Positions 13,373-45,357 of a stretch of 64,000 nucleotides of DNA are shown piece by piece; the first letter of the stretch is position 1, and every line of letters begins with the position of its first letter. Made by a program: the position numbers and the translations under genes. The notes below the pieces were generated by a model. The model did not search any database. It had not been told where the DNA came from and was given only the letters and a program-made list of their open reading frames with translations. Source of the stretch: Clavelina lepadiformis (taxonomy: Eukaryota; Chordata; Ascidiacea; Aplousobranchia; Clavelinidae); contig NC_135244.1 in assembly GCF_947623445.1 (NCBI RefSeq), positions 2,356,001 through 2,420,000 of the forward strand, given 5' to 3'.

Positions 13373-13572
13373 TATCATTGACGTCATGTTTCGAAAAGCA
13401 AACGTCTGAAAATAAGAATCCTGTATTCTATTTTATTTGTAGCCTATATAATAATATCCCTTTATTATCACAGTACTTAATACAGGAAGTGCATACAGAT
13501 TGCAACATTCAGCATTTACGAAATAGTTTATCTAAGGTAATGGGTAACTATTTATGAAGTATATAATGCTTT

Positions 13573-15032
13573 CTAGCTTTCGTCAAAATACGTAACACAT
13601 TCTAAGTACGATGAAAGCCTTCCAACATCAAACCTCCCAGATATTTTGTGCGTGAAGACTGGTAACCTGTTGGCAGAAATTTAACAAAAATTTGGCCAAT
13701 TGCACTGTTCAGCAAAAATATACAATGGAGTATTGTACAGTACATTAGTTGTTATGTATAAACTCCACACAGAGAGATGTTTTATTTCATTCGATCTGTG
13801 ATTGTTTACCTTTTATAAAGGTGATTAAGAAAGTTGCCGGTTGCATCTTTTTCAAGAAATGGAGAATTCTTTTTGTCTTCAAGAAATATTGATACTTCTT
13901 TCAAGGCGGCCGGAGAAAGAATGTAGAAACACGGACACTGCGAATAAGACACTGTGAAAACGAAATTGTGCACGCATTTGGCCACAATAAACGATCATGT
14001 AACTTACAGCAGATCTAGATTGTGTCTCATCAGGTTGGGGCTTTTCCAGGAACCTAGTCACTCGATTTTGTGAGTTAGTTTCTAAAATTCCATGTTTAAC
14101 GACATCTGTGAAAGATGAGCGAGGTGATGCTTTGTTTAATACTTAAACCACACACAAAAGTTAAAGGTGGAATTATTGTATTGTAAAAGTTACCATCTCT
14201 AGCACAATCATATACAGTCACCAAGCTACATGTAGGAATCTCCAATTTAAGTTTTCTAAATTGATCTATCATTTTGGAGAGATCAAAGTCGCTGTAAAAC
14301 AGGGTGTCTCTAAACACAAAAGATAAGGTCATCATTGCTCGAATATAGTACAAAACCATCATTACGTAATATTTCCTATGACGTCAAGATTACCAGTGCA
14401 GTAGCGATATTTTAAGAAACATTCTGTAGACAGCCAACAGAAACATAATTGCCATGTTTTCAAAACCAATTTAACGGCAGCAGAGACATTAACTTTACCC
14501 AGCAACAATTATTAAATCGGATTGTTCGACTCCAAATGAGCTAACTGCGAAAGCCAGTGCAGCCACTGCTCCAAGTTTAATATTGTTTGTGCTTGTTTTG
14601 TCATTTACAACTGAAATAAAATCCGGCCATTCTTGAGACCATTTCATAAATTGTTCATAAAAGTGGTCATTTGTCTAAACAGAAAATAATAATTCCAACT
14701 TTTAACTGTATGTAGGAACATTAAAAGTATATTTAAAAATTTTCTAAAAAGATGGGTATATACTTACTTAGTCCATAAATATATGGCGTTTTATCATGGG
14801 GTTTAATCTATGTAAGTCATGTAAAAAACACTAATCTCACTTGTATATGGACATGCTCAATATCATCAGACTCCTGAAATAGCTTCATCCAGTGTGATAA
14901 CAGTGGTTTAGGCCCAATTGGCAAAAGAGATTTTGGTAAATGGAGCAATTCCTTATACTTACCGCTTGCGTCATTGCGAATATCGCGAGCCAGCCGGGTT
15001 CCAAAACCACCCGCCAAAATAACCACCTTCAT
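13573..15032 (-). CDS. Sugar-1-phosphate nucleotidyltransferase family, copy 1
   Basis: A six-exon gene that parallels copy 2 exon for exon (copy 2 at 43813-45269), with every frame open. Exon 1 is about 14841-15032, exon 3 lies within 14180-14310, and the stop is at 13573-13575. The signature LAGGFGTRL at residues 6-14 is the nucleotide-binding loop of the NTP_transferase family, followed by the PKSLLPIG substrate lysine region. VAGDTLFYSDFDL supplies the metal-binding Asp, and FLEKP is the second conserved lysine motif. It differs from copy 2 at scattered residues, including Arg for Gly in FDVGR near the C-terminus. The sugar and nucleotide cannot be read from sequence. It looks functional, unlike its MMAB neighbour. 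Confidence 0.85.
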
Positions 15033-15346
15033 ATTTACAAATCAACCAGTAACCATCAAGAAACCTTTAAAGCACAATCATTAACATAGAAGTAGATTTG
15101 TATATACCACTCATATGTAGGACATAATGCAACCTTGATTAATGTCTCCCTTTGTGTCATAGACTGTTTATAATGGACTATTACATATACTCTTATTGTC
15201 ACAGCCAGGAAAATATAAATCAAGTCCATTTCTCAATACACTTTAAACAGCAATAGGTCATCACACACAAGTGCATGTAAATAGGTAATTGAAAATTACT
15301 GTGTATCATGATGCACTGATTTGTGCGCAAAAGATCAGAAAATGGT

Positions 15347-15965
15347 TTAGTCCTTTGTCCCTTTATCATTGTCAGAATCTGTTGTTGTTAATTTCGCATC
15401 TACAAGTTTTTTCTTTCTCCTTGGCTTTTTGTAAATAACTTCCGGATGTCCTTCCATAGAAGCAACATATCTTGCGAGGGTGAAGAGAAAATCACTCAGC
15501 CTGTTTATGTATTTTGCAACAGGTTCGTCGACATCATTTTGAATAAAACGTGACGCCACTTTTCTCTCAGCTCGTCGGCAAATGCTGCGTGTGACATGAA
15601 GTGAGCAACTACCCCTGCCTCCAGAAAGCAAAATAAAGTTCTTCAGCTCTGGAAGATCTTTTGTAAACTTGTCAATCCATTCCTCCATCTCCACTACGAG
15701 ATCTTTGTCAAATTCAGTGCGTGCGATCTGCTTTTCTGATGCGCTTGTTAAAGGTGTCGCCACACAAGAAGCTACATCTTGCAACGTGCACTGAACCTTT
15801 TGAAGCATTTCGTTTAACTCTTTAAAGTTTTCTTGCTGCCTATACTCCATTAAAACTTGAGAATGAAGACACGCTAAGTACAATTAAATTTGAAAAATGC
15901 GACTTTTCTTTCAGGTTGTGAAAAAAGAGCCTTATAAAGCAAGGCGGACTGCTAAGCAATTTCAT
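15347..15965 (-). pseudogene. MMAB: MMAB copy 1, broken by internal deletion
   Basis: Copy of cob(I)yrinic acid a,c-diamide adenosyltransferase. The start corresponding to Met8 of copy 2 is kept at 15965, and the first 34 or so codons are readable. A 179-bp segment present in copy 2 (42808-42986) is missing. The lost part includes the ATP-binding KTGDGGTSSLFTGER motif and shifts the frame, so a stop follows within a few codons. The downstream frame (15347-15883) remains open but is disconnected. Its conserved FILPSGG motif reads FILLSGG, consistent with relaxed selection. About ten of 165 shared residues differ from copy 2. Confidence 0.9.
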
Positions 15966-16618
15966 ATTGAAACACTTTAAAATCTTGATTGAATAGTATG
16001 TATATTAACCTTCCTACAATACAAAATACCAAAGTTTTATGAAAACAATGACCCACATTTTAAAAAAATACCTGAGCATCATTGCTTTTCAATAACAATT
16101 TACTCAGCTTTACACATTTCACAATAAAACCATTTAAATTTAATATTTTGAAAGTTTGTTTTTAATTAGGCTATACTTCATCCCTACTGGAAAGTTTGCT
16201 TTCAGTGCGTCAATAACTATAATGCCAAAATTTGCTCCACGCCAATGTAATACTGTACTTCTAATCTAGAATATAGGGCAAACGACAATTGCGCCAGAAA
16301 AATGGCATCAAACAAACTTTCCAGTAGTGCAGTTTATTCCTGATATTGACAAAAGCAAACAACATTACCGAGTTGGAAGTACATTTATATTCCAGGTAAT
16401 AATCATTTAAATATGAACAAGGAGTCTTGGCCTCTTACTGTCTTAACTTTAGTGTAACATATAAGCCTAGTCTAATTTCTGCTGAAATGTTTGTGATTTT
16501 GTGGGCGTGGTTGGTTGGACGCGGTTATCCACATAGTTATCTAGGTAGTATCATAAAACCATGAAAATTAACAAACTGAAAACTTTATCTTGAATAAACA
16601 TGTTTATAACCTTAAGCT

Positions 16619-16856
16619 CTAACTTGCTCTTATGTTGGCTATCAACTTCCAAAACATCGACTTTTGCACCTCAAGTGACACTGCAAGTTGTTCTTTTGTC
16701 GTTCCTTCCTTTGGGGAAAGCCCGTTCTTGATATTGTTGAACAGGATTGCACAAGCCACAAAGAGCGGATTACGCAAAGATGAGTTTTCGCTGTGCTCGA
16801 CAAGTCTCGCAATAAAGCTTGATGTAATTGAAACAACGATTTTAACCAGAATTTTT
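16619..16856 (-). CDS. Unidentified terminal exon, copy 1 (up to about 79 codons)
   Basis: The minus-strand frame runs to a TAG at 16619-16621 and includes FVACAILFNNIKNG and KEQLAVSLEVQKSMFWKLI. It looks protein-like (amphipathic helices, few rare residues) and its C-terminal part is shared with 41868-42039 in block copy 2. There is no Met near its beginning; a weak acceptor (ttacatcaag) could open it. It could be the last exon of a gene whose 5' part was left outside the duplicated block. I do not recognise it. The plus-strand ORF over the same bases (16632-16859) is a shadow. Confidence 0.35.
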
Positions 16857-16879
16857 TAGTTAAAATTAAAATTATATAT

Positions 16880-17343
16880 GTAACGAAAAGTGGCTATATG
16901 GCACCTGAACTTGAGAGTTTGACCTGCTCCGTTACAATATTTACTTAATGAAATGTTTATTGTGGATGATGATATATGAGTCTCATGAGGTCGTTGTCTG
17001 CTTATCTCACTCTCAGATTTTATTTTTCACCTTGACGGCTTATTGTCTTGTGAAGATTGCAACAAAGTTGTCTATCTTAACACTGAACTTCTTCAAATAG
17101 AATTCAACAATGGTTATACAGGAATGAAAACTGTATATACTGACTATGTTGAAATTGCTTTGAACAAATAAATTTAGACAGAGCATTGGCACGGCAGCAT
17201 AAAAATGTCCATGTTTCAGCGATTATCTTAGTACTCTTAATGCATTGAACAACTATGAATAATACACGCATTATAGGCAGGCAGGATATTCATGTCACGA
17301 ATTAAAAGGGAAAACAGGAAGTTATCGATACGCAATGTTATCT
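16880..17343 (+). repeat. Dispersed ~450-bp repeat, copy B
   Basis: Starts at taacgaaaagtggctatatg, directly at the end of block copy 1, and closes at gatacgcaatgttat. It has the same orientation as copy A (12856-13372) and copy C (29470-29818). The shared segment gatatatgagtctcatgagg is nearly identical in A and B. Confidence 0.78.
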
Positions 17344-17355
17344 ATAATTAACAAC

Positions 17356-18160
17356 AAGAAATGACAAGAGTTCTGAGAAAACATTTTGTTATCTGCTGGG
17401 TATGAAATATCAGTTTATTATAAAGATTTGCCGACATTTAGAAATTGCAAAAAAGAATAAATGTTTCTGATATTTGGCTCGGCTCGTGAGACTTAACCCA
17501 CAAAGATGCATAAAAGTTTGGTACGTTTTGTATTTCAGAAAGATGGTGAGTCGGTGATTCCACTTAGGTCATGATCCATTGTATCGTAACAACAGATGAA
17601 TTTGTTCACTTAGAAAATGAGAGAGAGAATGAGACGCCTGCAATGCACGAGGTTGTCTGCACGTGATGTACTACTAAAAACAGAACTTTTGATGATTCGC
17701 ATGATTCGATTGTATGAGTACATGATATGCAACTTTGTAAAGGTTAGACGCTCAGCTACAAGTCATCGTTGCAATTAGTCTGTACTCTGTATATTACATT
17801 GCGGATGCATGTATTTACTTAATAATTTTTTTTCTTATTGCGTTTTACAACAGGTGAAACCGAAATTTCATCAACTAATTTTTGCATCTAAATTGCAAAT
17901 ATATATCTTGTCTGGCTAATATCACCGTGTTTCAGATATGGCCCGATTGATTTTTTAAATGTTTTTAGAAAGCACGCAAAAAGGTATTTTTTTGATATAT
18001 TATATCAAAATATTATTTTTGAAGTATTATTTTGATGCTATATTCATACTAGGCAAAAATGTATGATGTTGGTGACGTTGATATATTTTCAAATGGTTTA
18101 CTGCTTCATGTACATATTTGAAAGTGGTTGGCTGTCTTCAATAAACATTCGTCCAACACA
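17356..18160. other. Intergenic, downstream of the CUB/EGF gene
   Basis: AT-rich 3' flank of the minus-strand CUB/EGF gene, with runs of ttttttga and tatatcaaaatatt around 17985-18040. No gene was seen. Confidence 0.45.
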
Positions 18161-18892
18161 TTATTTTTCTTCTGCACAAGTGACGCCATTTCCGTTGAAA
18201 CCAGCGTTACACAGACATCCAAATTTTCCGGGGATATTAAGGCAAGTTGCGTTGGCATGGCAATTATTTGCATCACTCTGGCATTCATCGATGTCTGTTG
18301 TATGAAAAATTCGTTACATTGAGGAGCAAATTTTTCGGTATTTTGACTCATACCCAGAGGGAACATTGAAAATAAACACTTCGATAAAAATCATTCACAA
18401 AAAATAGTAAATCATTATACATCATTATTGCACCTGCACACGTTGTACCGTTCCCAGTGAAGCCAGAATTGCAAACACAGGTGTAACTGCCGACAGTGTT
18501 GACGCAAACTGCTTCGGTGTGACAAGTTTGGACAATGGTGTCATTAGCACATTCATCGACATCTTACAACAAATTTGGAAATATTAAAATTAGGCAAGTT
18601 TCGCTGCACATTTTGGTGTTGTTGTGAGTTTGTGGTTGGATTTCACAGGTCTTACTTAATTTGTACGCTTGCGTAACAAAGTTTTCCAATGATTTATTCT
18701 AAGCTATTTGATGTCCTTTTTGCAGCTCGCAAAGGTATAAATAACTTTTTTTGCTTACCGTGACATGAAAATCCATCTCCAGAAAAGCCAAGATTGCAGG
18801 AACATTGATAACTTCCCATTGTATTTGTACAAAAAGCGTTGAAATGGCACCGATGTTCATTCGTACTGCTGTTGCATTCGTTTAAATCTAAA
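18161..18892 (-). other. cbEGF tail of the CUB protein (three one-exon domains)
   Basis: Three successive exons each encode one EGF domain with six cysteines. The Asp-x-Asx-Glu-Cys entry and the Asn hydroxylation-type motifs CTNTMGSYQC, CVNTVGSYTC and CLNIPGKFGC predict calcium binding. The third ends in CAEEK and a TAA. Confidence 0.85.
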
Positions 18893-21800
18893 TAAGAAAA
18901 AATTATTTGCATTAAAACTGCAACTCAAAAGTTGGAATACAGTAACAAAAACAGAGCATAATTTAGGTGGAGAGATGCCCAAACTTTCAAACCTTGAGAT
19001 GTCCAGGCGACTTGGAATCCCAGGCTTGTTAGAACTTCATCCGTATGTAATTGCAAAGTTATGGTGTTGCTCTGGGAAATTAATTCATTTGGTATCTGGT
19101 CTCCGCAAAAAACGTTTTCCTGTCAAACAGAAAGATGAAATTTATTGCTTTTTCCTTAGGTAAATACTATTTTCTATGACCCAATTTATACGTTAGAAGC
19201 TAAACGATTAAAAGCAAAGTTCCAAACCTGCTTATCGCCCTCTATTATCGTTAAAGTGTCGTTTCGGCAACTTCCATCCTTCGCACCTTCACTTCGGAGT
19301 GAGAAGTTTGTAAAATGCAAATTTAACACCTGAAATGAATATCAGAGTGGAATTGCATGAATTTCGAAGTCGTGGCACGAACGACTTTGTCAGTTGTCAC
19401 AATGCAAGTGTACCTGTCCAATCTCGGTCGAAATCCTCCATTCACAATCTGTTTTATCTTTATAGTTGTCTGGAAAACCCGGTGACTTTAGAGATCCATT
19501 CGGTGAGTTATAAACAGTGTTTCCACATGGATTTTCTACAAAGGTAATCTTTATGAGTGATAATAGCATTGACGCATAAACAGAAAGTAACTAAGCGCGC
19601 ACCTTTCGATGACCAAGTTAGTCTAAAACCATCGTATGTTCTGCTCGCATCAGTATCAAATAACAGTCGAACAGAGTTGCTTCTTGAAGTATAAATGCCA
19701 GGAGAGGAGTTACCGCAAAATCTTTCCTATGTAGGTAGAATGTAAGTTAATATTGGCAATCCTTATGCGGTAACATTTACAAAAGCTACCCGCATAACCA
19801 TAAAACTCAGAGCTTTGCTAATGCTGGTGCATCAAAACTGGTACTGCTAATGCTAATGCTGGTACTTTTACTTACGAAGTGGCGTTAGCCTATATATTTC
19901 ACCTTGTAACTTCCATCAACGACTGTGAAACTGTCAAAACCGCAATCCTTGTTGGGCTCGAGAAGAAACTTTGTGAAGTTTAAGATCAACATCTACCGAC
20001 AAACCAAATCATATCACAGAGTTTACTCTAATTTTCCACCCGTTCACTTGGTGATGATATTGTTTATATCAAATCAGGTTGATATCGAAGACAGCGAGGT
20101 GTTTATTAACTTATATAAAAAAGATAGATTTCCTAGATGTCTAGATGGCTTGAAATTCTATAACTTACAACGGAAAAGAGAGAAGAAAGAAAGAGAGAAA
20201 AGAGAGAAGAAAGAGAAAACAAAACTTGAATAGCTTAAGTAGGTTAAAACAAAAGCTTTTTAACTACCTGACCAATAGGCACGTGAATTGTCCAGGTACA
20301 CGTCATGTCATTAAAATACTTTCCTGGATAACCCGGTGACGCCAAACCACCTGACGGTAAATTGTAGATCGTATCCCCGCATGATGGAGCTACGAAATAC
20401 CAAATTGTAATTTAAACGAGAAACAAAATATTTTGAATGAATGAAGTGTGAGAAGAATTTCAGCTTAGCCTAAACGATCATTGCTACTGTAAAACAGATC
20501 TCACTTACCTGCAGACCAGAGTAGTAGAAAACCTTTATCGGTTATATCCTTGTTTGTCTGAAAGCGAATTACGACGCTTTTGCTGCGAGAAATATAATTG
20601 GGTGGGGAGTTTGTTCCACAAAACTTTCTCTGTCAAACAAAATTTTTCATGCATTCACAACTGATTGACTTACATTATAGTAACTTTATTATCGATCCAC
20701 CGATATCAGTTAAACAAACATTTACTTACCTGTCTATTTCCATCAAATATTATTAAGTTATCTAAAGTGCATTTTCGGCCGTTTCCCAACGCAAAATCGA
20801 CGAACGTGAAATTTAGCACCTAAAAATAATTGTCGCATGTTTAGCCTATATCGCAAACTGCACAGTTTAAAACTGAAGCACTAGAAGCTGAAAAAAGTAA
20901 AAACGTAATTATTTTAAACTAAATCTACTGTTGATAAAGATGCTGTTGTTATGATTGATTTCTGCATTGTTGAAAATAAAGACACCAGACATTTTAGCAG
21001 CGATTTTAAAAACCTGCCTTTCCGACTTTACTAGAAATGGTCCAGTTACAGTTGATGTTATTGAAGTAACCGTCTGGATAACCTGGCGACGCCAACGAGC
21101 CAGTATCCGAATTGATCAAAGCACCACAAGGCCAAGCTTTTTGAAGTATATCCATTCATAATATAAAAACATTATACATATATATAGACATTCATTTATA
21201 TGGCAATCAAGTTAAAACAAGTAAACTATAATTTTATCATAGCTTGTATACTTATGTTATTTATGCTTTGCTTATGCTTGTATGTTATAACTTGTATAAC
21301 TTATCATAACTTGTAAAACTTGGGAAGAGTTGAAATAGGTATACCAAACTGTTGCAAATAATGTAACAAGGGCATAATATGGCCATGCTTTGTTAACAAA
21401 ACCGACATGTTTCTAACTAAATGAATGACTGGCTCTTTAATATACTAAATATCTTAGAACTAGTTGTCGCAGACACAGTTTCAAACGTTCTTACCTGAGG
21501 ACCATTCCAGTCTATAACCTCCTTTTCTGATGTTATGGTCGGTTTGAAATTCAACAATAATCGAATTACTCTTAGAAAGGAATGCGTTGGGAAGCTGGTT
21601 GCCACAATATGTCTTCTGTTGGGTAAAACACGAGCATGTGGTATATGTGTTATATTGTTTACACTTTTCAAATTCACAAACCAATTGTTTGCGTTTAGAA
21701 TTTGTTTGCATGGCAGAAAAGAAAAGAAATTTATCATAGTCTTACGCGATTGCCACCGTCGTATATTGTCAGGCTGTCACGAGAACAGTTCGCTGAATCT

Positions 21801-24800
21801 TCCACCGAAAAATCAGTGAATCTCACATTCATCACCTAACAAATTGGAGTTTCAATAAAACAATTAGCCTAATACTTAAAAATTTAAAATGAAATACTTT
21901 ATGATGCAATATTTTGTTTGACTCACTCAGCCAATATGACAATGTAACTTTTGTTTGGTGAGTAGTATACCAGCTCTACCAAATCATTTTATTCTTACCC
22001 TGGATTTGCTAACAGTTATGGTCCAGTTGCAATGAAAATTATTGTAATACTTTCGTGGGAATCCCGGCGTAGTCAAAATTCCAGAAGGAGATGTCAAAAT
22101 CGAATTTCCGCAAAAGTTCACTATAAGAAGAAGAATATAGTTCGTTAAGTATGGAAGCTAAACATGTTTTCAGCAAAGTGAGTATTTCATTGCAGTTTTG
22201 CTCGCGTATGAAGTCTTTACAGTTTACAGCAAAGACATACACTTTTTATGAAAGAAACACATCAGATTTTTATACGACTTTTTACCTGAAGTCCACGCGA
22301 GCGCAAAACCAGTGTCCCTAATGGCGCTGTTTGTCCGAAAGCGAACAGAAACTGATTGCGTTTCAGCGAGAAACGAATCTGGTATTGACTTTCCGCAGAA
22401 TTTCCACTGCAAAAATAAAGTAAGCCTATTGTGTATTGTTTACAATACATGAAATCACATTTGTTTTTTTGTTTATTTGTTTATTTACCTGTTTATTGTT
22501 GTTTATCACTTGCACACTGTCCATTGCACATTTCTCATGACTTTCCAATGCAAAGGCTGTAAAGTTGATATTCAACGCCTAAAAAGGTTCATTTTGACTT
22601 TATTGCATACCATAGATAGCCTACATGCTTTCCCTGTTTTTGTCATTGCAATTTTAAGCCGGATCCACAAAATACTTCTGAGAAGCGATCGTTTTACGTT
22701 TGTTCAACCTATTCTGCTCTTGTCTCACTTGTTTCCCGTTAAAATAAGTTAAGTAAAGGTAAAATTTGTCCCGAGAAATCTCTGGGTGGATCCAGTATTG
22801 GAAAGACTTGAGTTTTATGACGTTGACTTAAAAAATTCTTCTGTACCATCCACCTTCCACAACTGAATTTTACAAAAAAGAAATAAAAAAAACAGAAAAC
22901 TATATCTGTTATAGTCTGCTTTACCTTTCCTTCAACCGTTGAGATATTCCACTGGCAATTAGCATCATTAAAATAAGATTCGGGATAACCTGGTGACGTC
23001 AGAAGCCCGGATTGTGCGATCACAGAAGCTCCACACGGCCAAGCTGCAAACATTGGAGAATTTAAAAACAAAGTGAGAACTGTAAAATGAAAGGCATAAC
23101 TCATGAACCTACTGGACGACCATTCAAGTCTGAAGCCTTTGCCGTTGATGTAATGATCAGTGACGAACTCAATCACGATTGAGTTTTTTACAGATATGAA
23201 AGTCGTCGGGACTTCATTTCCGCAAAATGTTTTCTATTTCACAAAAAAACACCCGAATAAATACAAAATGAGGTCAGCAAAATAAAGCTAAAAGTCTAAG
23301 CTGTTACTTGGATTTTTCCATCGCTGATAGTCAAGTTGTCATAGATGCAAACTTCTTCTTCTTCGAGCGAAAACTCTGTAAATCTGATGCTTAAGACCTA
23401 AAATAAAACGATGTATTTTTGCGGGAATACGTTTCACGTAACGCTTAGGCTAAACTATGACATGCACTTAAACCACAGCAGTTTTCCCGACACGTTTGGA
23501 CATTTGCTTATAACTACAGCTATGACATCACTAAAAATGTCATCTCATTAATTAAAGACGAGCAGGACTTTGACAGGAATTTATAAGAGTTTTGCCAATT
23601 TAAATAAATGGTTCTTATCCTGATATTTAGCTTCTGAAATGTTTCTCTCTTACTTTCGTTTCGCTAAAAGCGGTTAACTTCCGCCATGTTTTGTGACATG
23701 TTTTAAACAAGCATACAAACGAACACAGAAATTCTACCAATTCTACCTGATCTCTGGATGTAGATATCGTCCATTGACATCTTAAATCATGAAAGTATCT
23801 TCCTGGATAACCTGGTGACGCCAGTGTTCCCGACGACTGAAACAAACTTGTTTCGCCGCAAGATGGCTCTGTAAGCAAACGTCCAAAATAGGGCGTAATT
23901 TAAAACAACATCCAGTACTTGATATTTTAAGCCGGCAATACATACTTGCGAACCAATCAATTTTGAAACCTCTCTGTGTGTTGAAACCATCAGTTTGAAA
24001 ATGAAGCTTTACCGAGTTACCCTGAGTTAAAATTGGGCTTGGAGTTATGTCTCCACACAGCGTGACCTGAAATATAACAAAAATCGTCCTAAATTTAAAA
24101 ACTTTTTACCTTTTTACAGCATCTAACCTATTAAACTTGTTTGTTTTTTTGGTAAATAATTAATAGCTGAAAAGTTGGTTAAGCGTTTCGAAAATAAATT
24201 CAGAATTGTGGCTCGCGGCAAAGTACGATACTCCTTTCTGGACTAAAAATATTAAATTTTTTAATGAGGGTCGCAGAAAACAAAACACAAATCTCGCGCG
24301 AACAAATTTAACATAACTTTTATGAGAAAAATTAAGAAAGGCAATTTTTATACCGTGGGGCACATTGTGTCAGTTTAAAATGTTTAATTCGTAAGGTCTT
24401 GATGTCAGTGCTAATAACACCACAATAAAAACCTTTAATAAACATAAAGGAAAAAGTAGTCAACATTATAGTTAAACATAACCGTCCTAATTGTTTCGGC
24501 GCGAACATTTTGTAAGTTGAAAACTGTGTGTAGAGCGTTGAATAGAAATACCGAAGCAAAGAACAGTAAAAAGCACTTCACCGTGTTTGTCCCGTCGAAA
24601 ACGGTTAAATTATCTCTGGCACATTTTTCATCATGCTCTAACGAAAAATCAGCAAAACTGATGTGCAAGACCTAAAAAAGAAAGAAGGCATTTTTCAGTT
24701 TTAAATTTTAGCCATCAGTACCCGGTACAATGACAACTCACATTTCCAACTCGAACCGTAATCGTCCAATTGCAGTTCATATCTGCAAAGTAGGTTTGGG

Positions 24801-28974: not shown

Positions 28975-29469
28975 CGACATGGCCAAACGTTTTTGGTAAG
29001 AAAATAAGGCGTTAGGTAAAAGGTTAAAAGGTACTGGCAAGGAAACCGAAAAGCATACTCAAGTCACGCGTTGTATTCATACAAAATGCCAGTTTCGAAA
29101 ACATTAAAAATCGAGAGAGTAAAAATAATGTTTTTGGCGCGGTGCCCGCGTCTAGAGACTGATGTTTGGTAAACAAACGCGTTTGAGAGCTAATTTGCTG
29201 CTAAACTGGACAAACTAAACTCGGTGGGAAAGATCAATCCCTGAAGTGGATGGTACAACCATAGAAATCTATTAACATTATTCGTTTTATGATAAAACAT
29301 GGTAAAAGTAGGATTCGTTTTTATAAACACTTGCAATATATGTTTTTGGGAAAGTGAATGTGTATACAATTAGTTTTCATATAATACCAAACATTTCCAA
29401 TAAATACGATATTTTGGTATAAATGTTAAAAGAACTGAATTCTTATCAATGTTTGAAGCGTTAAACTTG
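28975..29469. other. Upstream region of the CUB gene
   Basis: Non-coding, with no clear element other than the TATA box just downstream on the minus strand. Confidence 0.4.
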
Positions 29470-29818
29470 TAATGAAAAGTGGTGTATGGTACCTTAACCT
29501 GTAAGGTTTGCCCACTTCACTACAAAGTCTGTTTACTTGTGTATATCTCAACAGTGAGCTTTGATAGACTTCAGCAATAATAACACAGGAATGACAACTG
29601 CATAAGCTGATTATATTGAAGCTTCTTTGAACGATTACATTTTAAATAAAAACATTGTGACAGCTACATAATAAAGTCGACCACTTTCTAGGGTTAACTT
29701 CGTAGACTGTGACGCATTGAAAAACTATGAATAACAACACACGCAAAGCAGGCATGCACGACATTTTTGTCACGACTTAGTACGATAAGCAGAGAGTAAT
29801 CGATTACGCAACGTTATG
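29470..29818 (+). repeat. Dispersed ~450-bp repeat, copy C (shortened)
   Basis: Opens aatgaaaagtggtgtatggt and closes at gattacgcaacgttatgc, matching copies A and B at both ends. The gatatatgagtctcatgagg segment of A and B is missing here, so this copy has an internal deletion. Confidence 0.7.
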
Positions 29819-32810: not shown

Positions 32811-34663
32811 ATGGAAAGAAAAGTGTACCTCCTACTTCTAATAATTGTTCACCTGAAAGGTAAGTGAAAGCGGATTGTACAAAATGCATGTTTTAGATAC
32901 TATTCCACAAGAAATTTATTGATGTGGTGACAGGAGTTTACATGTTCTTATTTATCGTCGTTTGTAAAACGCATAATGTGACATTAATGAATACGATATG
33001 TTTATATTATGTTTAAAAAACATTCTGCTAAAGGATCTGACAAAATCACAAAAATTTTTATGTTTACGTTATAGTTTTTCAAGCTGTGGAAAACTGCCTT
33101 GAAATTTCCTGCGTTGGAGGAATTAAAAAACCTGTTGTTGCTGCTTCCGATTCCTATCGCGTTTGCTCCAGAAGTGTTAAAAGCGGTGAATTCCAATCTT
33201 GCCATTACTTGAACAAAGCAATATTTGAAAGTTTGGATTCCACCAACTTGACAATCGAACGCGTCTTGGAACACAACACAACAAGAGCTTTGGGAACGAC
33301 ATCTTCTCCAAATGGAACTAATTGCACTTCTGAAGCCGAGAATCACAACCGAGCTCGGTTGCTGGTTGATACAGAATGTGTTGGACTTTCCGAATGCGAT
33401 TTGCCTTATGAGGACGAAAATATTGAAAACTGTGACGACTACAAAACCGTTGAGTATTTTGTGAAGTTTTCAATAATATTACTGCTCACCGGCGTAATAT
33501 TAACAGCAAACCTGGCCACATTCGTTCACGCGATTTTAGAGCTCCGCAAACCTGCTTTGTCAAATGTGACGAAAGTCCATTCCATCACGATTCTTAACCT
33601 GTCTTCCGCCGATTTCGTCACTGGATTGTATTTGACCGGTGTCGTCATTTCCTCGCACGTGACTCATTCCGCTTGTGATGAAAACGCCCGACACGCTTGG
33701 CTGCACAGCCTTCCCTGCTCCCTATTGGCTGCGGCGAGTCTCGCCTCCAGTAACATATCGACAACCGCTCTTATCCTTATCACGTCAGTCCGGATGTTGA
33801 GTGTGCTTAGACCGTACAAGAGGATCAGCGTTAAACCTATCGCCTGGATTGCGTTCATCTCCTGGATTATCTGGTTCGTTTGGGCCGCCGTGCCTTTGTT
33901 TGATCTGGACGTCATAAAGTCGATCTTTGTAAAAGCGGTCCGGATAAAGTGGGAAGGTGCAACTAAAACATTAACTTACGATTCTATCCTCGGAACGGTC
34001 AATTATGTGCTGGATGGTTTGAACAAGACATGCAATGGGAGTTTGTACGGGCTTGCCCATATTTCAGACGAACTGACCTGGCCAGATTTGATATCATTGT
34101 CTCGAAAAATTGATCTACATTCAGCCGACGATGGGATCTATTATTACGGCTATTACGTTCACGATCAGCTTTGCTTCGCCGAGTATTTTCCGAGCTTCAG
34201 AGACAAGTCTGCGTTTTTCACTTTATTCAACGCCACTTTCAACATTCTGTCTTTCCTGTATATTGTAATAGCTTACATTGTAATCGTCCGCAAATCATCC
34301 TTAGGTTTATGCTGCTCCAAGCAACAAGTCCGCCTTGGCTGCTGCGTCGGTCCCAGCGATGAGGCCAATCGCATTAGGAGCCGAAGAGACGAAGAAAACA
34401 GAAAAGCAAATTGCAAAATTTTCCTCATCACTTTGACAAATATGATGTGCATCTTACCCATGTCCATTGCCTCCGTTTTGCACTTTTTTTGGACCTCCAA
34501 TAGCGACGCATGCGCAGTAAGAGATTACGAAAGAAGTATTAACAACTGGGTAGGGGTCTTGGCGCCATTTGCAATTCTTATCAACAGCTTTTTGAATCCT
34601 TTTATTTACTCCGCTGGAATGTGGAGAGTCCCCTGTAAAGGATGCCGCGACAGAGCGCCATGA
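32811..34663 (+). CDS. LGR-like class A GPCR with short Cys-containing ectodomain, paralogue 1
   Basis: A 545-residue cell-surface receptor in two exons (32811-32859 and 33075-34663). Exon 1 encodes the signal peptide MERKVYLLLLIIVHLK, and exon 2 continues in phase as VFQAVENC. Starting at 33086 would lose the signal peptide, and that codon is GTG. The ectodomain (about residues 21-140) has roughly nine Cys and several Asn-glycosylation sites but no leucine-rich repeats. Seven helices follow. TM2 has ILNLSSADFVTG, close to the NLSxADxxxG of LGR and relaxin receptors. The E/DRY position reads SVRM and keeps the Arg. TM7 has LNSFLNPFIYSAGMWR. The TM4-TM5 loop is about 100 residues, ending in the conserved LCFAEYFPSF that should pair with the TM3 Cys. 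The ligand is unknown. Polyadenylation signals aataaa follow near 34927 and 35043. Confidence 0.85.
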
Positions 34664-36156: not shown

Positions 36157-37982
36157 ATGCAGTTTGGATGGATTGTATTTTCTGTAGTTACCCTCTTGTT
36201 TAAAGGTAAGGTTTTTACGTAAGCTTAAGCAGAAATGCATCTCCTGGTTTTTAAATTAAAAGAACCAAACGAAAAAGGAAAAAGAGATTTCAAATTTTTC
36301 AAAAAATGAGTTTTACGCTTTTCATTGTATTAGGTGTTCAGTGTGCCCAAATCGACAAAGATATCAGAGATGGAACGTGTATAAAAGTGCCATGCTTAGC
36401 GGAGGGGAAGATAAACAACAGAAGCTTCTATTATATCTGCAGTCTTTGTGATATGCCAATATGTTCAGCAGACCCTTTCCTTGGTAGCAAAAGTAACTTA
36501 TCGCTCGCGAAAAGTGAAGGTTTAAGTGAAAATCTTCATTCAACATTGGATAGAAACACAATGTCGTCGAGGAATAACTTAAATACCACGCTTACAAATG
36601 TCAGCAGCATGAACTTGTTTAGTGACGTGGAATGTACGGGATATTCTAGTTGTGCGTTGTCGGGCGAAGCGACGTTACAGCCATCTGCTTGCGAAGCCTC
36701 CTCTCAACCGGTTTATTTGTCCGCCCGCTTCCATATTTGCTGGATAATAACAGCGGCCATTTTAAGCGCTAATCTCGCCGTGGTCGTTCGGAATATTTTG
36801 ATATTACGCAGAAAAAATTCTCTCCTGGGCAACGTTGCAAAACTTCAAGCCATCACGATACTGAACTTGGCGGCAGCAGACCTTCTAACTGGAATAAACC
36901 TTCTCGGAATTACCATATCAACCGTCGTAAACCCTTTTGACTGCACCGATAGTTCTACAGCGGCCTGGCTGCACAGCACACCGTGTTCTTTGTTGGGCGC
37001 GGCTAGTTTTGCATCCACTAACGTTTCCACGACGGCTTTAATACTAATTACCTCTGTCCGGATGCACAGCATTCTCAAACCGTACGAGAGTGCCGGAATC
37101 AAAAAGATTACTTGGATTGCGATTGTGTCGTGGATATTTTGGACAATTGTTGCAGTGACGCCTCTTTTGAAGTTTGAAGTCATTCGGTCTGTTTTCATAA
37201 AGAGTGTCAAAATAACAAATGACCATAGAACGCAAAAGCTCTCTCACCAACATATTCTCCACACACTTAATTTTCTAACTAAAGCAGCAAGCGAAGCATG
37301 TGGTCTGAACTATCAAGATTTTTTAGTTCCAAGCAACGTCTCGTGGTCTGCATTAATTTCTATGTCAAGGAAGCTGAACTTGCTTTCTCCCACAGACCAA
37401 GTTTATTTCTACGACTACTACGTCCATGAACGAATCTGTTACGCAGAATACTTATCTTCTTTCCATGATAATTCCATGTTTTTCACCTTGGCTATGGCTG
37501 GTTTCAATGCGTTATCATTTCTTTACATAGCATCAGCTTACGTCGTGATATGCCGCAAAACTACTATAATGCCCAGTTGCATTTGTCAGAGAAACGAACT
37601 ATGTTGTGTTACTGAACACAGCAACGACAGGCCAGCTTTTCAAGATAACAGAGACATGGAAAATAAAAATGCATACAGCAAAATTTTTATCATAACGTTA
37701 TCTAATATGTTCTGCACGCTTCCGTTATCATTGCTATCAATTATTTTCATCGCGCAGACCGCTACTGATGACCTTTGCGCTGTCAATGAACACGAAAAAA
37801 TGATTCAAACTTGGGTTAGTGTTTTTGCAACTGCGTTTGTTCCTCTTAACAGTTTACTAAATCCTTTTATTTATTCCGCTGGTATGTGGAGAATTTTGTA
37901 CAAGAAATTATGTCGTAAAAAGCAAGAAATGTCTAAATCTAGCACAGCTTCAAGTGATTTACATATTCGTGTTTCCGCCTGA
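36157..37982 (+). CDS. LGR-like class A GPCR, paralogue 2
   Basis: A tandem sister of the preceding gene: 565 residues, two exons (36157-36205 and 36334-37982). Exon 1 is exactly the same length (49 nt) and ends in the same phase. The signal peptide is MQFGWIVFSVVTLLFKGVQC. The Met at 36306 is intronic and was rejected. The ectodomain again has several Cys and Asn-glycosylation sites and no leucine-rich repeats. TM2 reads ILNLAAADLLTGINL, TM3 ends LILITSVRMHSILKPY, and TM7 has LNSLLNPFIYSAGMWR. The long second extracellular loop is conserved, with VYFYDYYVHERICYAEY aligning with its sister. The C-terminal tail is longer, Lys- and Ser-rich, and could be phosphorylated. Function unknown. Confidence 0.86.
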
Positions 37983-38299
37983 AACTTTAACTTATATTAT
38001 CTGATGTTTTTATTCTTTTAGTAAGGCTTGCTTTTATCTAATTTTAAATTTCTTGTTGCAAATACCAGTGTCTATTAATTACTTTTACGTTTATTTATGC
38101 AAATTAAAGTCGAAACACAATGGATCTTTATTTATAACAAGGGTGCGCTAACATTTCAAGAGCATTGGCTACATTACATTATTCTTGAGCATTGGGGAGC
38201 TAAAAACAATTATATATAAATTTTTAATTATAAATAATTTTATTTATAACTAAAAATTTTTGGTTAAAATCATTAGTTCAATAACATCAAGCTTTATTG

Positions 38300-38988
38300 T
38301 GTGGCGTTCGGACAATTTCATAATTGCAATAATTATATATATTGGCATTGCATAAAGTTTGATTTTTCTCCAGTCTAGATAATGTAATAATGTGCAAAGC
38401 TTGTAGCGTGCTGACATAGATTGAAGTGTTTCAAGTACCTTGTTTTCGTGGTGTAATATGCGACACGTGGTTTATGGTAGCAGGTATTGTTCTAGTATCT
38501 TTAATCACAAGCGTAGTTTCAAACCAATATGTGATATAGTAAGTGTGTCAAGTGGTTTTTTTGTACTGGTGTAAAGCGGTTTGAATGCTTTGTGAGAAAA
38601 AGGCTTAAATTGGAACTGACACGTGATTATGGGCTGATTGGCTAAAAGCTGATTGGTCAATACTTTAGTATAAAAAGAAATGTTTTGTTTAAATCGCTCT
38701 CTTCTCTGACTCGTACGAATTGAATTCTTTTCTGAGTTATTCTATTTTGAATAAGTAATTGCTAACAAATTGGGAATTGGAATCATGGTGTAAATATCCT
38801 AATTCGGACAAGTTATTCGGACAATATAGCAAATTTGAACTTATGAAGTTGGTGTTGATTTAAGAAGCAATATAGAGACAGTAAACGCAACGGAGTCAAA
38901 GACAATCATAGGAGTCAGACAATAAAACTGAAAGACTGGGTTTGGCTTAGGCCATCCCAAAACCATTACCACACCACCCAATCCCATA
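38300..38988 (+). repeat. 5' long terminal repeat
   Basis: The first copy of the direct terminal repeat. Its partner is at a constant offset of 2285 bp. A shared short antisense ORF in both repeats is a by-product of the repetition, not a gene. Confidence 0.9.
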
Positions 38989-40584
38989 AATGGTAACCCC
39001 GTCTTTCTTCTGCAAACGAAGAAGAACACATGCACTTCTGAAAGATTCGATTTATGAAAGGTGAAAATTGGAGTCAGATTAGGATCGAGAGACAAACTGC
39101 ATTCAACGGTCTGTTAGCGAGAAAATTGCGGCAGACATTTTAAAAATTCTCGAAGTAACCAGTTGAAAGAAATCTCGCTAACGAACAATGACTATCATGC
39201 TACTGGCATTATGGATTACGATGATGACGACGCTAGCCAACACTAGCCAAATCCAGCAACCAACACAGACCAGCGTCAAGCATCGCTTAAAAGAAAAATG
39301 GAAGAAAAATCATCAAGAAGAACGAAGTTATCAATCTGTTGTGGACACTTCTACATTTGATTCTGCACCCGATTAATTCTTAGCCGGTAAAGTACATTAC
39401 TCATTTCTGAATAAATCGTAGCATGTTATTGGTGTTATTAGATATTAGCTAGCGCACATATATCATGATTATTAATAACAAAAATATTAAATACGTTTCT
39501 TACTCTGATTTTACCTCATAAATTTATGTCCCCAAGGACAACGCGCATATAAATTCATACTGTAGTTATATCTTATATTTGTTCTGCGTAAACCGCGCAT
39601 CATAATCATACTCAAGAAATTCAATTTGAACTAAAAGTTAATATATTCCTTATCCCCTGTCGACTTCTATCTATACTTATTTTTCAATATCATGTTTTAT
39701 GGTAGATGATTTTTTTATTTTATTTTATTGCATGGACACAGGCTAACTAAGCCAAATACTTATCAACGGTCACTTTCACCCCATTGTCTACCTACAAAGC
39801 ATTCTTTTCATCTTTTCTTACGCTAAGCACTTTTAGCTACGTTTTATATTAACCCACCTTTATTGCTTCATAAATGACTTACATAAGTACAAGCGTTAAC
39901 AAAAACGCCGTACGATTATTTTGCCTGTTTGTCATAATATACCAGGTTGCAAACTGCCAGCCTGTATAAGTCAGAATCTGTTGATTTGTACTATCCCGAT
40001 ATAACCTCGATTCACAAGTGGTACCGCATAACTTGCATACAACAAAATGCAAGCAGAAAACGAGTTGGGGCGAATCGCGATATTAAGCATATTACTCAGA
40101 CTGATCGAACTTTTATTTTCTTCTCCTGCATTATGCAAACCCTCTTAACCCTTACCCACCCTTGTACTTACATTATCTTGCTATAACAATTCGGTAAACC
40201 AAACGCGTTGTCCGATATCCTTTGTGTCAAAATATTGCAATGCATTAGTTATAATGGCAATCATTTTATTCAAACTGTTTGTGTTAGGTTTTGTGTGCAA
40301 TTACATTTACCATACTTTTATATTACTTCGGTTGTGGTAAAAACGTATAAAAAAATAATATCAAAATATTTAAAAACCCTTCTATACAACATAGTATTAG
40401 CGAAGAATATTTACTGCTATTTTTTCTATTGCATGTATCAATTCGTGTGACCTGTGATGACTGCACAAATATGACTGGAGGGAAAACAAATTCTGCATTC
40501 ACATTGCAAGCTGCCAACAACAATCTTGCAACCTGCCAACGCCAGTATCCCTACCTCGAAGCTTTTTGGGTTGGGGGAGTTAAT

Positions 40585-41273
40585 TGTGGCGTTCGGACAA
40601 TTTCATAATTGCAATAATTATATATATTGGCATTGCATAAAGTTTGATTTTTCTCCAGTCTAGATAATGTAATAATGTGCAAAGCTTGTAGCGTGCTGAC
40701 ATAGATTGAAGTGTTTCAAGTACCTTGTTTTCGTGGTGTAATATGCGACACGTGGTTTATGGTAGCAGGTATTGTTCTAGTATCTTTAATCACAAGCGTA
40801 GTTTCAAACCAATATGTGATATAGTAAGTGTGTCAAGTGGTTTTTTTGTACTGGTGTAAAGCGGTTTGAATGCTTTGTGAGAAAAAGGCTTAAATTGGAA
40901 CTGACACGTGATTATGGGCTGATTGGCTAAAAGCTGATTGGTCAATACTTTAGTATAAAAAGAAATGTTTTGTTTAAATCGCTCTTTTCTCTGACTCGTA
41001 CGAATTGAATTCTTTTCTGAGTTATTCTATTTTGAATAAGTAATTGCTAACAAATTGGGAATTGGAATCATGGTGTAAATATCCTAATTCGGACAAGTTA
41101 TTCGGACAATATAGCAAATTTGAACTTATGAAGTTGGTGTTGATTTAAGAAGCAATATAGAGACAGTAAACGCAACGGAGTCAAAGACAATCATAGGAGT
41201 CAGACAATAAAACTGAAAGACTGGGTTTGGCTTAGGCCATCCCAAAACCATTACCACACCACCCAATCCCATA
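40585..41273 (+). repeat. 3' long terminal repeat
   Basis: The second copy of the direct terminal repeat, followed immediately by attgcgagag, which resumes the duplicated block sequence. Confidence 0.9.
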
Positions 41274-41306
41274 ATTGCGAGAGTTGTCGAGCACAGCGAA
41301 AACTCA

Positions 41307-41866
41307 TGCACCCGCTTCGTCAAGGATTAGCCCATAGGAAAGGAAAAAAGGAATGCACGGATTAGCCATTCGTATGGGCTGAAAGGAATAATTCCATCTT
41401 TTAAAGTAATTGTTGAAAGGCTAATCGTGTTCGAATGAGTAATCCATTTTATGTGAAACTATGGCTGGTCATTGTACGGTGAAGGCTACTGCTGTACATT
41501 ATTGAGATCTATAGGCTGTTGTGTTGATACGAACTACAGCATAGTACAGTGTGATTACTGGTTAGTTTAGCATATAGCATAGGTTTATCTGTGCAAATGG
41601 CATTGGTACTGCAGTTACAACCGTTGGAATGGCCTTGCACAAAGTATTAACGGATACTGCGTCATACACTGCTTACAGGCTATCTATATAAGGCTTGTAG
41701 ATATTAGAATAGCCGTATGCGACAAAATGGATTACTCATTCGAACACGATTAGCCTTACAACAATTACTTTAAAAGATGGAATTATTCCTTTCCGCCCAT
41801 ACGAATTGCTAAATCCGTGCATTCCTTTTTCCCTTTCCTATGGGCTAATCCTTGACGAATGGGCTG
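41307..41866. mobile_element. Fold-back element with ~135-bp inverted arms
   Basis: The arms at about 41311-41448 and 41727-41862 are inverted copies sharing cgtcaaggattagcccatag and ttcgaatgagtaatccattt, differing at only a few bases. The ~280 bp between them is non-coding. Block copy 1 reads straight across the site (aaaactcat then ctttgcg), so this is an insertion of about 560 bp. A target duplication of at most 3-4 bp (tcat/tgat) is uncertain. Superfamily unknown. Confidence 0.8.
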
Positions 41867-41867
41867 A

Positions 41868-42039
41868 TCTTTGCGTAATCCGCTCTTTGTGCCAGTTTGT
41901 GGCTTGTGCAATCCTGTTTAACAATATCAAGAACGGGCCTTCCCCAAAGGAAGGAACGACAAAAGAACAACTTGCAGTGTCACTTGAGGTGCAAAAGTTG
42001 ATGTTTGGAAAGTTGATAGCCAACATAAGAGCAAATTAG
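41868..42039 (+). pseudogene. Unidentified terminal exon, copy 2 (interrupted)
   Basis: Carries the same C-terminal part as the copy 1 exon (FVACAILFNNIKNG, KEQLAVSLEVQK) to a TAG at 42037-42039. Its upstream part is cut off by the fold-back and LTR insertions. A 10-bp duplication (ccagtttgtg) further alters the frame. If this was ever a host exon, this copy is broken. Confidence 0.45.
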
Positions 42040-42700
42040 AACTTAAGGTTATATACGAGTTTATTCAAGATAAATTTGTCAGTTTGTTAATTTACATGGT
42101 TCTATGATACTACCTAGATAACTATGTGGATAACCGCGTCCAACCAACCACGCCCACAAAATCACAAACATTTCAGCAGAAATTAGACTAGGCCTATATG
42201 TTACACTAAAGTTAAGACAGTAAGAAGCCAAGAATCCTTGTTCATATTTAGATGATAATTACTTGAAATTTTAATGAACTTCCAACTCGGTAATGTTGTT
42301 TTTTTTTGTTGTCAATATCAGGAATAAACTGCACTAATGGAAAGTTTGTATGATGCCAATTTTCTGGCACAATTGTCGTTTTCCCTATATTCTAGATTAG
42401 AAGTATTACAGTGGCGTGGAGCAAATATTGGCATTATAATTATTGGCGCATTTATCTGGCGGACTGAAAGCAAACTTTCCAGTAGGGATAAAGTATAATT
42501 ATAAAGAAACTTTCAAAATATTAAATTTAAATGATTTTATTGTGAAATGTGTAAAGCTGAGTAAATTGTTACTGAAAAGCAACGACGCTCAGGTATTTGT
42601 TTTTAGAATGTGGGTAATTGTCTTCATAAAACTTTGGTATTTTGTATTGCAGGGAGGTTAATATACATAGTATTCAACCATGATTTTAAAGCATCTCAAT

Positions 42701-43498
42701 ATGAAATTGCTTAGCAGTCCGCCTTGCTTTATAAGGCTGTTTTTTTCACAGTTGCAACAAAAATCGCATTTTTCAACTTTAATTGTACCTTGCGTGTCTT
42801 CATTCTCAGGTTTACGCATTTTCCCAACAGTCCTCACTCATGGGCGGGCTTTAAAAATTTACACCAAAACTGGAGATGGAGGTACTTCCAGCTTATTTAC
42901 AGGTGAGCGAAGACCGAAATTTGATGCTGTTTTTGAAACACTCGGAGATATTGATGAACTTAATTGCAATATCGGACTTGCCAGAGAGGTTTTAATGGAG
43001 TCTATGCAGCAAGAAAACTTTAAAGAGTTAAACGAAATGCTTCAAAAGGTTCAATGCGCGTTGCAAGATGTAGCTTCATGTGTGGCGACACCTTTAACAA
43101 GTGCAACAGAAAAGCAGATCGCACGCACTGAATTTGACAAAGATCTCGTAGTTGAGATGGAGGAATGGATTGACAAGTTTACAAAAGATCTTCCAGAGCT
43201 GAAGAACTTTATTCTTCCTTCTGGAGGCAGGGGTAGTTGCTCACTTCATGTCACACGCAGCATTTGCCGAAGAGCTGAGAGAAAACTGGCGTCACGCTTT
43301 ATTCAAAATGATGTCGATGAACCTGTTGCAAAATACATAAACAGGCTGAGTGATTTTCTCTTCACTCTCGCAAGATATGTTGCTTTTATGGAAGGACATC
43401 CGGAAGTTATTTACAAAAAGCCAAGGAGAAATAACAAACTTGTAGATGCAAAATTAACAACAACAGACTCTGACAATGATAAAGAGACAAAGGACTAA
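42701..43498 (+). CDS. MMAB: Cob(I)alamin adenosyltransferase, mitochondrial (intact copy)
   Basis: Transfers the adenosyl group of ATP to cob(I)alamin, making adenosylcobalamin for methylmalonyl-CoA mutase in mitochondria. It is single-exon. The frame is open from a Met at 42680, giving 272 residues. The Met at 42701 is the likelier start because only it is conserved in the duplicate, giving 265 residues. The N-terminal ~50 residues are rich in Ser, Phe, Lys and Arg with few acids, as in a mitochondrial presequence. The ATP loop is KTGDGGTSSLFTGER, followed by LGDIDELNCNIGLA. The FILPSGG and RSICRRAER motifs and the helical NRLSDFLFTLAR complete the family pattern. A Lys/Asp-rich tail ends the protein. 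A cag acceptor at 42653-42655 suggests a spliced 5' leader. Confidence 0.93.
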   Translation: MKLLSSPPCFIRLFFSQLQQKSHFSTLIVPCVSSFSGLRIFPTVLTHGRALKIYTKTGDGGTSSLFTGERRPKFDAVFETLGDIDELNCNIGLAREVLMESMQQENFKELNEMLQKVQCALQDVASCVATPLTSATEKQIARTEFDKDLVVEMEEWIDKFTKDLPELKNFILPSGGRGSCSLHVTRSICRRAERKLASRFIQNDVDEPVAKYINRLSDFLFTLARYVAFMEGHPEVIYKKPRRNNKLVDAKLTTTDSDNDKETKD

Positions 43499-43812
43499 AC
43501 CATTTTCTGTTTTTTTGCGCACAAATCAGTGCATCATTATACACAGTAGTTTTCAATTACCTACTTAAATGCACTTGTGTGTGATGACCTATTGCTGTTT
43601 AAAGTGTATTGAGAAATGGAGTTGATATATATTTTCCTGGCTGTGACAATAAGAGTATATGTAATAGTCCATTATAAACAGTCTATGAGACAAAGGGAGA
43701 CATTAATCAAGGTTGCGTTATGTCCTACATATGAGTGGTATATACAAATCTACTTCTATGTTAACGATTGTGCTTTAAAGGTTTCTTGATGGTTACTGGT
43801 TGATTTGTAAAT

Positions 43813-45269
43813 ATGAAGGTGGTTATTTTGGCGGGTGGTTTTGGAACCCGGCTGGCTCGCGATATTCGCAATGACGCAAGCGGTAAGTATAAGGAATTGC
43901 TCCATTTACCAAAAGCTCTTTTGCCAATTGGGCAAAAACCACTGTTATCACACTGGATGAAGCTATTTCAGGAGTCTGATGATATTGAGCATGTCTATAT
44001 AGAAGTGAGATTAGTGTTTTTTACATGACTTACATAGATTAAAACCCCATGATAAAACGCCATATATTTATGGACCATTTATATACCCATCGTTTTAGAA
44101 AATTTTTAAATATACTTTTAATGTTCCTACATACAGTTAAAACTTTGAATTATTATTTTCTGTTTAGACAAATGACTGCTTTTATGACCAATTTATGAAA
44201 TGGTCTCAAGAATGGCCGGATTTTATTTCAGTTGTAAATGACAAAACAAGCACAAACAAAACTAGACTTGGAGCAGTGGCTGCACTGGCTTTCGCAGTTA
44301 GCTCATTTGGAGTCGAACAATCCGATTTAATAATTGTTGCTGGGTAAAGTTAATGACTCTGCTGCCGTTAAATTGATTATGAAAACATGGCGATTATGTT
44401 TCTGTTGGCTGTCTACAGAATGTTTCTTAAAATATCGCTACTGCACTGGTAACCTTGACGTCATAGGAAATATTACGTAATGATGGTTTTGTACTATATT
44501 CGAGCAATGATGACCTTATCTTTTGTGTTTAGAGACACTCTGTTTTACAGCGACTTTGATCTCTCCAAAATGATAGATCAATTTAGAAAACTTAAATTGG
44601 AGATTCCTACATGTAGCTTGGTGACTGTATATGATTGTGCTAAAGATGGTAACTTTTACTACACAATAATTCCACCTTTAACTTTTGTGTGTGGTTTAAG
44701 TATTAAACAAAGCATTACCTCGCTCATCTTTCACAGATGTCATTAAACATGGAATTTTAGAAACTAACTCACAAAATCGGGTGACTATGTTCCTGGAAAA
44801 GCCTCAGCCTGATGAGACACAATCTAGATCTGCTGTAAGTTACATGATCGCTTATTGTGGCCAAATGCGTGCACAATATAGTTTTCACAGTGTCTTATTC
44901 GCAGTGTCCGTGTTTCTACATTCTTTCTCCGGCCGCATTGAAAGAAGTATCAATATTTCTTGAAGACAAAAAGAATTCTCCGCTTACTGAGAAAGATGCA
45001 ACCGGCAATTTTCTTAATCACCTTTATAAAAGGTAAACAATCACAGATGGAATGAAATAAAACATCTCTCTGTGTGGAGTTTATACATAACAACTAATGT
45101 ACTGTACAATACTCCATTGCATACTTTTGCTTAACAATGCAATTAGCCAAAATTTTGTTAAATTTTTACCAACAGGTTACCAGTCTTCACGCACAAAATA
45201 TCTGGGAGGTTTGATGTTGGAGGGCTTTCATCGTACTTAGAATGTGTTGCGTATTTTGATGAAAGTTAG
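43813..45269 (+). CDS. Sugar-1-phosphate nucleotidyltransferase family, copy 2
   Basis: Six exons: 43813-44004, 44168-44343, 44533-44648, 44737-44834, 44905-45032 and 45176-45269. All are GT-AG and in phase, giving 267 residues. The enzyme family joins a sugar 1-phosphate to an NTP with release of pyrophosphate. The N-terminal LAGGFGTRL loop, PKALLPIG, the VAGDTLFYSDFDL metal-site Asp, FLEKPQPDE and a C-terminal FDVGGLSSY are the expected landmarks in order. The length fits a single-domain RfbA/GlmU-N-like enzyme without a beta-helix domain. No signal peptide is seen, so it should be cytosolic. It begins 314 bp after MMAB on the same strand. The donor sugar is not predictable, and the gene is not clearly an eIF2B or GMPP subunit. 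Confidence 0.87.
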
Positions 45270-45357
45270 AAAGCATTATATACCTCATAAATAGTTACCC
45301 ATCACCTTAGATGAAATAATTCGTAAATGCTGAATGTTGCAATCTTTACGCACTTCC

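Follow-up and report, generated by a model that had tools for sequence, protein, structure and literature searches.

Two questions are raised by a locus on chromosome 5 of the ascidian Clavelina lepadiformis: does a multi-gene block occur there in two inverted copies, and, if so, how did the pair arise and what has become of its genes? The window analyzed here comprises 64,000 nucleotides (C5:2356001-2420000) of the 209-Mb genome. The original prediction, made from the letters of the sequence, held that about 3.4 kb at 13485-16870 recurs as its reverse complement at 38210-45357, introns and spacers included, and that the block carries MMAB (ATP:cob(I)alamin adenosyltransferase), a nucleotidyltransferase, and an "unknown exon." We found that the pair very probably arose by inverted segmental duplication at the DNA level, may have been homogenized in part by gene conversion, and is now decaying. 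A limited literature search recognized no publication on this locus, which is not proof that none exists.

Results

Self-BLAST of the window and alignment of the matching parts placed copy A at 13485..16878, with its genes on the minus strand, and copy B at 38230..45357, with its genes on the plus strand as the reverse complement of A. Three inverted matches connect the copies: 13485-15856 with 45357-42989 (95.8% identity over 2373 columns; bit score 3825), 15853-16784 with 42813-41864 (89.2% over 961 columns, including 40 gaps; bit score 1265), and 16810-16879 with 38299-38230 (87.1% over 70 columns; bit score 87). These matches are mutually collinear, and their bit scores are far above chance. 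Across introns and spacers, with the two inserts of copy B excluded, A and B differ at 172 of 3381 sites (5.1%) and by 10 gaps, one of which lies at an insert edge. The inner edges are 21.4 kb apart. Self-BLAST and these 3381 collinear sites bear out the predicted inverted pair, whose claimed edges were correct to within ~20 bp (38210 is really 38230). The recurrence itself stood, but copy B spans 7.1 kb rather than the 3.4 kb of copy A because it contains a long terminal repeat (LTR) element and an inverted-repeat element.

The first of the three matches exceeds both thresholds that define a segmental duplication, a length of at least 1 kb and an identity of ≥90%. Genome searches with copy A, MMAB, and the nucleotidyltransferase indicated a low-copy block that is not a transposable element, and its arms point in opposite directions and enclose other sequence (self-BLAST, with Pfam for the intervening genes). 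In the whole-genome DNA search with copy A (best 40 of 134 candidates scored), 4 of the 51 listed matches were copy A (whole) or copy B (three pieces); within these limits, the block is present twice. The other 47 all fell on one embedded dispersed repeat (query positions 2685-2852; 16169..16336 in the window, no strand assigned). The A/B alignment places this repeat in both copies, and it therefore predates the duplication. The pair thus resembles local inverted segmental duplications in animals, e.g., those at inversion breakpoints, as the consulted parts of two reports describe them (PMC1952172, PMC3961182): it is >1 kb long, >90% identical, low copy, and inverted, with arms tens of kilobases apart and other genes between. 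It differs from them in its short arms with large heterologies, and it is known from one haplotype.

The flanks of A and B differ. In a nucleotide search of A flanks against B flanks nothing collinear was found; the best match covered 38 columns (E = 0.013) in fitting orientation, ~3 kb from the A edge and 0.4 kb from the B edge. The best match in another nucleotide search was only 17 bp (E = 0.051). A tblastn search with 198 short open frames taken from the A flanks produced one match that reached E = 4e-4 (34 columns, 32%). We discounted it because it paired the right flank of A with the right flank of B, which is the wrong pairing, and lay at a stretch that several unrelated queries matched when the low-complexity filter was off.

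Pfam confirmed that the block carries MMAB and a nucleotidyltransferase. In copy B, MMAB is an intact single-exon frame of 265 amino acids (42701..43498, plus strand). It matched Pfam Cob_adeno_trans (PF01923) over profile positions 1-171 of 171 (E = 3e-53; 180.8 bits, cut-off 24) and TIGR00636 (142.9 bits, cut-off 108.45), and its best solved relative was human MMAB (2idx, E = 1.5e-57). Copy B thus contains the complete domain of a PduO-type adenosyltransferase above cut-off. The enzyme makes the B12 cofactor for methylmalonyl-CoA mutase, according to the part of PMC9262797 consulted. Copy A was also predicted to carry MMAB, and it does (15347..15965, minus strand), but as a gene broken by a 179-bp deletion and loss of frame, as seen by Pfam, alignment, and frame analysis. 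The 179 bp kept in B (42814..42992, plus strand) are missing from A after position 15852; the motif AAAC starts the missing stretch and comes again after it. The leader frame in A reaches a stop after 41 codons. What remains of the frame matches the profile from position 43 of 171 onward and still scores 117.4 bits, above the Pfam cut-off, so that no single frame of copy A contains the complete domain. The missing stretch corresponds to profile positions 1-42, roughly the first quarter of the domain, and the frame is shifted across it. Because this stretch encodes the conserved domain start KIYTKTGDxG.., common to copy B and human MMAB, the difference reflects loss from A, not acquisition by B. 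In the ILPSGG stretch that B shares with the human protein, A has Leu for Pro. To judge from its reading frame, MMAB in copy A is a pseudogene. It is like other unprocessed (duplicated) pseudogenes in lying within a duplicated genomic context and in being broken by a deletion with frame loss, and it shows no notable difference from them.

A whole-genome search with MMAB gave three matches (3 of 3 candidates scored). Since all of them fall within A or B, copy B is the sole complete MMAB seen in the genome, and we infer that B alone supplies the enzyme. Downstream of the deletion, the comparison of A with B gave dN = 0.028, dS = 0.114, and dN/dS = 0.25 (bootstrap 0.09 to 0.64), values that would fit constraint on B throughout and on A during part of the time.

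In both copies, the nucleotidyltransferase consists of five exons separated by four GT-AG introns, with an open frame of 237 amino acids. In copy A it occupies 13806..15032 on the minus strand (exons 15032-14841, 14674-14499, 14309-14194, 14105-14008, and 13937-13806); in copy B, 43813..45036 on the plus strand (exons 43813-44004, 44168-44343, 44533-44648, 44737-44834, and 44905-45036). The predicted introns of the block are confined to this gene because the MMAB frame of copy B is uninterrupted. A hand-spliced 195-amino-acid piece of copy A, in which one junction carries a surplus residue, matched Pfam NTP_transferase (E = 2e-15). No NCBIfam model scored above cut-off among the best 25 of 29, and solved enzymes gave two weak matches (best E = 1.8e-4). 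The dN/dS ratio between copies is 0.52 (dN = 0.030, dS = 0.058), with a bootstrap range of 0.22 to 1.50 over 400 draws, and says little about selection. Of the 11 matches from a genome search, 10 are pieces of the exons in the two copies, and the other is a distant relative on C8 (32% identity). That relative lies at positions 773-2401 of C8:7472000-7474400 in an intron-free frame of >540 amino acids; its second half appears GHMP-kinase-like by eye, and the protein is perhaps a fused sugar kinase/nucleotidyltransferase.

Copy B contains two insertions. The LTR element (38300..41273, no strand assigned) has LTRs of 689 bp each at 38300-38988 and 40585-41273 and is flanked by a 4-bp target duplication, ATTG. 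Its LTRs differ at 1 of 689 sites, and it is apparently a very recent insertion. The interior has no stop-to-stop frame of >90 amino acids. Close relatives are dispersed in the genome, with at least 41 matches including the element itself (best 40 of 99 candidates scored). The second insertion, an inverted-repeat, fold-back element resembling a miniature inverted-repeat transposable element (MITE), lies at ~41308..41866 (ends accurate within a few bases; no strand assigned). Its terminal repeats, 41316-41450 and 41724-41859, are 96% alike, and it too has dispersed relatives (best 40 of 144 candidates scored). Both insertions lie upstream of MMAB and interrupt the stretch of the "unknown exon" (16619..16855, minus strand), a 78-amino-acid frame that is open in A and interrupted in B. 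The reading of this frame as an exon is unsupported. The best that Pfam offered was a PorB match below threshold (E = 0.03), NCBIfam gave nothing at E = 1, the genome search listed matches at A and B only, with no third copy, and among 61 codons five changes replace an amino acid and one is silent. A resemblance to a COMM-domain exon was considered, but no search supports it.

Divergence between the copies is uneven. In 150-bp windows it ranges from 0.7% to 12.7%. Noncoding sites differ at 23/825 within 13725-15267 and at 88/1223 elsewhere; a segment as distinct arose in 1 of 500 permutations. From left to right, silent sites (noncoding plus four-fold) differ at 19/240, 28/916, 11/137, 54/820, and 10/95, i.e., 3.1% in the middle and 6.6 to 10.5% outside. 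The dispersion of these sites in 100-site bins was reached by 14 of 2000 shuffles, and the longest identical run by 72 of 2000. Differences also step up at the MMAB deletion, from 95/2360 on the left to 77/1021 on the right (p = 4e-5, coding sites counted in).

Both edges of copy A adjoin members of a dispersed repeat family, here termed R. R1 (12889..13472, plus strand), an old solo-LTR-like element, has its 3′ end (..TTATTATCACA) 12 bp from the copy A edge and has lost ~23 bp at its 5′ end. R2 (16879..17356, plus strand) abuts the other edge with its 5′ end (TGTAACG..) and is ~80 bp short at its 3′ end. The two therefore run in the same direction; each is intact at its block-facing end and truncated at the other. 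Ungapped identity between them is 78.5% (447 shared sites); with gaps it is 71%. A third, more decayed element, R3 (29467..29817), runs in the same direction and is 63-64% alike to R1 and R2. Self-BLAST found no R sequence at the edges of copy B. Family members measure ~650 bp and end in TG..CA; of 19 other loci examined, 13 have an exact 4-bp target duplication and 6 lack it. In these traits the family resembles solo LTRs of LTR retrotransposons; it differs in that R1 and R2 each lack one end, and no full-length element was seen, though none was sought. Among the best 40 of 554 candidates scored, the best full-length relative of R1 was 86% alike, and shorter pieces reached 88-91% over 160-270 bp. 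The arrangement R1-block-R2 as a single LTR element with block A as its interior was ruled out, because two LTRs of one insertion start identical, and R1 and R2 are 78.5% alike versus 95% for A and B.

The chance that both block edges lie within 12 bp of an R end is ~(6 x 25 / 64000) squared, or ~5 in a million, an after-the-fact figure that counts six R ends in 64 kb, ignores other repeat families, and serves only as a guide. This coincidence is the one real puzzle of the locus. R1 and R2 look older than the 5% divergence of the block would suggest, and for this reason are unlikely to have inserted after a recent duplication. Either the R elements had a role in the event, or the duplication is older than its divergence suggests, with conversion halted where they sit.

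Discussion

We propose that a 3.4-kb segment carrying MMAB and the nucleotidyltransferase was copied in inverted orientation to a site ~21 kb away on the same chromosome. The introns kept in both copies imply copying at the DNA level. Since then the pair has decayed unevenly. A deletion at a direct repeat of 4 bases removed 179 bp of MMAB from copy A, so that no complete MMAB other than that of B was seen in the genome; copy B acquired the MITE-like insertion and the very recent LTR element upstream of MMAB; and the nucleotidyltransferase frame is still open in both copies. Each copy holds an intact part that the other lacks, and the lesions consequently do not tell which is older. We conclude that the locus is for the most part ordinary: the inverted segmental duplication is local, one of its MMAB copies is broken, and the LTR-bounded edges make it only a little more notable.

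Gene conversion between the arms, raised in the original prediction, is the probable cause of the greater similarity in the middle of the block than toward its ends. Uneven divergence lends this moderate statistical support and makes conversion there suggestive, not proven. Several observations weigh against our reading. Four-fold sites alone differ little between the genes (nucleotidyltransferase, 5/91; MMAB, 6/69), the segment 13725-15267 was picked from the same data, and the shuffles assume independent sites. Constraint in introns could also cause the divergence step. The dN/dS of MMAB implies either that A spent part of the period under constraint or that its deletion came late. As far as the consulted parts of the reports go, the pair is like gene-converting inverted repeats (human Y palindromes, PMC4233959; yeast reporters, PMC8748988) in its inverted arms and in divergence as uneven as under partial homogenization; it differs in that its arms are 5% apart rather than highly similar and its conversion is suggested only indirectly. 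Because the yeast inverted repeats produced both conversions and inversions (PMC8748988, in the part consulted), the suggestion that the pair could mediate either is sound in principle.

The same divergence pattern bears on a rather unlikely alternative, an older and larger inverted duplication in which similarity survives only where gene conversion still runs. Conversion would be halted by heterologies, namely, R1, R2, and the 179-bp deletion in A and the inserts in B. R1 and R2 would fence the exchanging tract, sequence outside it would have drifted past recognition, and the MMAB deletion would now subdivide the tract, so that apparent breakpoints at transposon ends would be conversion limits instead. 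This account draws on the edges of block A, one of which lies 12 bp from where R1 ends and the other directly at the start of R2, on the apparent age of the R elements (78.5% between R1 and R2; 86% for the best full-length R1 relative among those scored), and on a divergence that rises at the deletion and peaks beyond the B inserts (10/95). Yet no collinear homology was found past R1 and R2, although so old a flank may be undetectable; the partial relatives at 88-91%, among the best 40 of 554 candidates, make the age of R1 uncertain; the step at the deletion counts coding sites too; and the edges were noticed post hoc. Alternatively, a break or strand switch at the LTR ends may have copied the R1-R2 interval to B, or filled A from B. 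The coincidence of R ends with both edges of copy A speaks for this, but the edges of B are free of R sequence, no target duplication is visible by eye at either copy, and R1 and R2 are too unlike to be the LTR pair of one recent block-carrying insertion. We consider such a role of the R elements doubtful.

Two further accounts fare worse. An alternative haplotype contig might have been joined in inverted orientation, so that the pair is really one locus. Allelic divergence in some ascidians is comparable to ~5%, the level found here. Nine haplotypic duplications were removed manually from the assembly, as the consulted part of its report states (PMC10884593); the same part gives HiFi coverage of 117-fold, a contig N50 of 8.3 Mb, and a quality value (QV) of 67.4. 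A haplotype copy would be expected to bring its flanks along, but low-threshold nucleotide and translated searches found only short, noncollinear matches there. An assembly duplicate would be unlikely because the flanks are distinct, the orientation is opposite, each copy has private lesions, and the 64 kb contain no N; taken together, we regard this account as very improbable. Production of one block by reverse transcription is scarcely credible. MMAB is single-exon in B, versus at least 7 exons in human MMAB by the exon numbers in the consulted part of PMC9262797, but four nucleotidyltransferase introns and the spacers are retained in both copies. Antisense capture would escape the intron argument, but the divergence of R1 from R2 counts against it.

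If the inverted segmental duplication stands, a metabolic gene, MMAB, is apparently down to one complete copy inside an inverted-repeat pair, and the repeats could invert the CUB/EGF exons and the two receptor genes between them. Were the block edges conversion limits, divergence-based dates and edges of segmental duplications would mislead wherever repeats adjoin the arms; if they are not, the duplication is routine.

Other features of the window

No Rfam family reached its gathering score within 12000-46000, and no tRNA genes were found in the window. Self-BLAST detected short inverted pieces at 12408-12584 and 61799-62114 (96-99% alike), probably a dispersed repeat, and a direct repeat pair at 47243-47383 and 58295-58450 (70.5% over 156 columns). 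Two aldo/keto reductase exons were identified by Pfam at 7772-9079 on the minus strand. A CUB gene and two G protein-coupled receptors had been placed between the copies, and Pfam supported EGF/CUB exons and two receptor frames there. Three frames searched on the minus strand gave EGF_CA and CUB exons at 18348-24105, and more CUB-like pieces could be seen by eye as far as ~27 kb. Two 7tm_1 receptor frames, each a single exon, lie in tandem at 33041-34663 (540 amino acids, just below the Pfam cut-off) and 36255-37982 (575 amino acids); both have long N-terminal parts and are paralog-like by eye.

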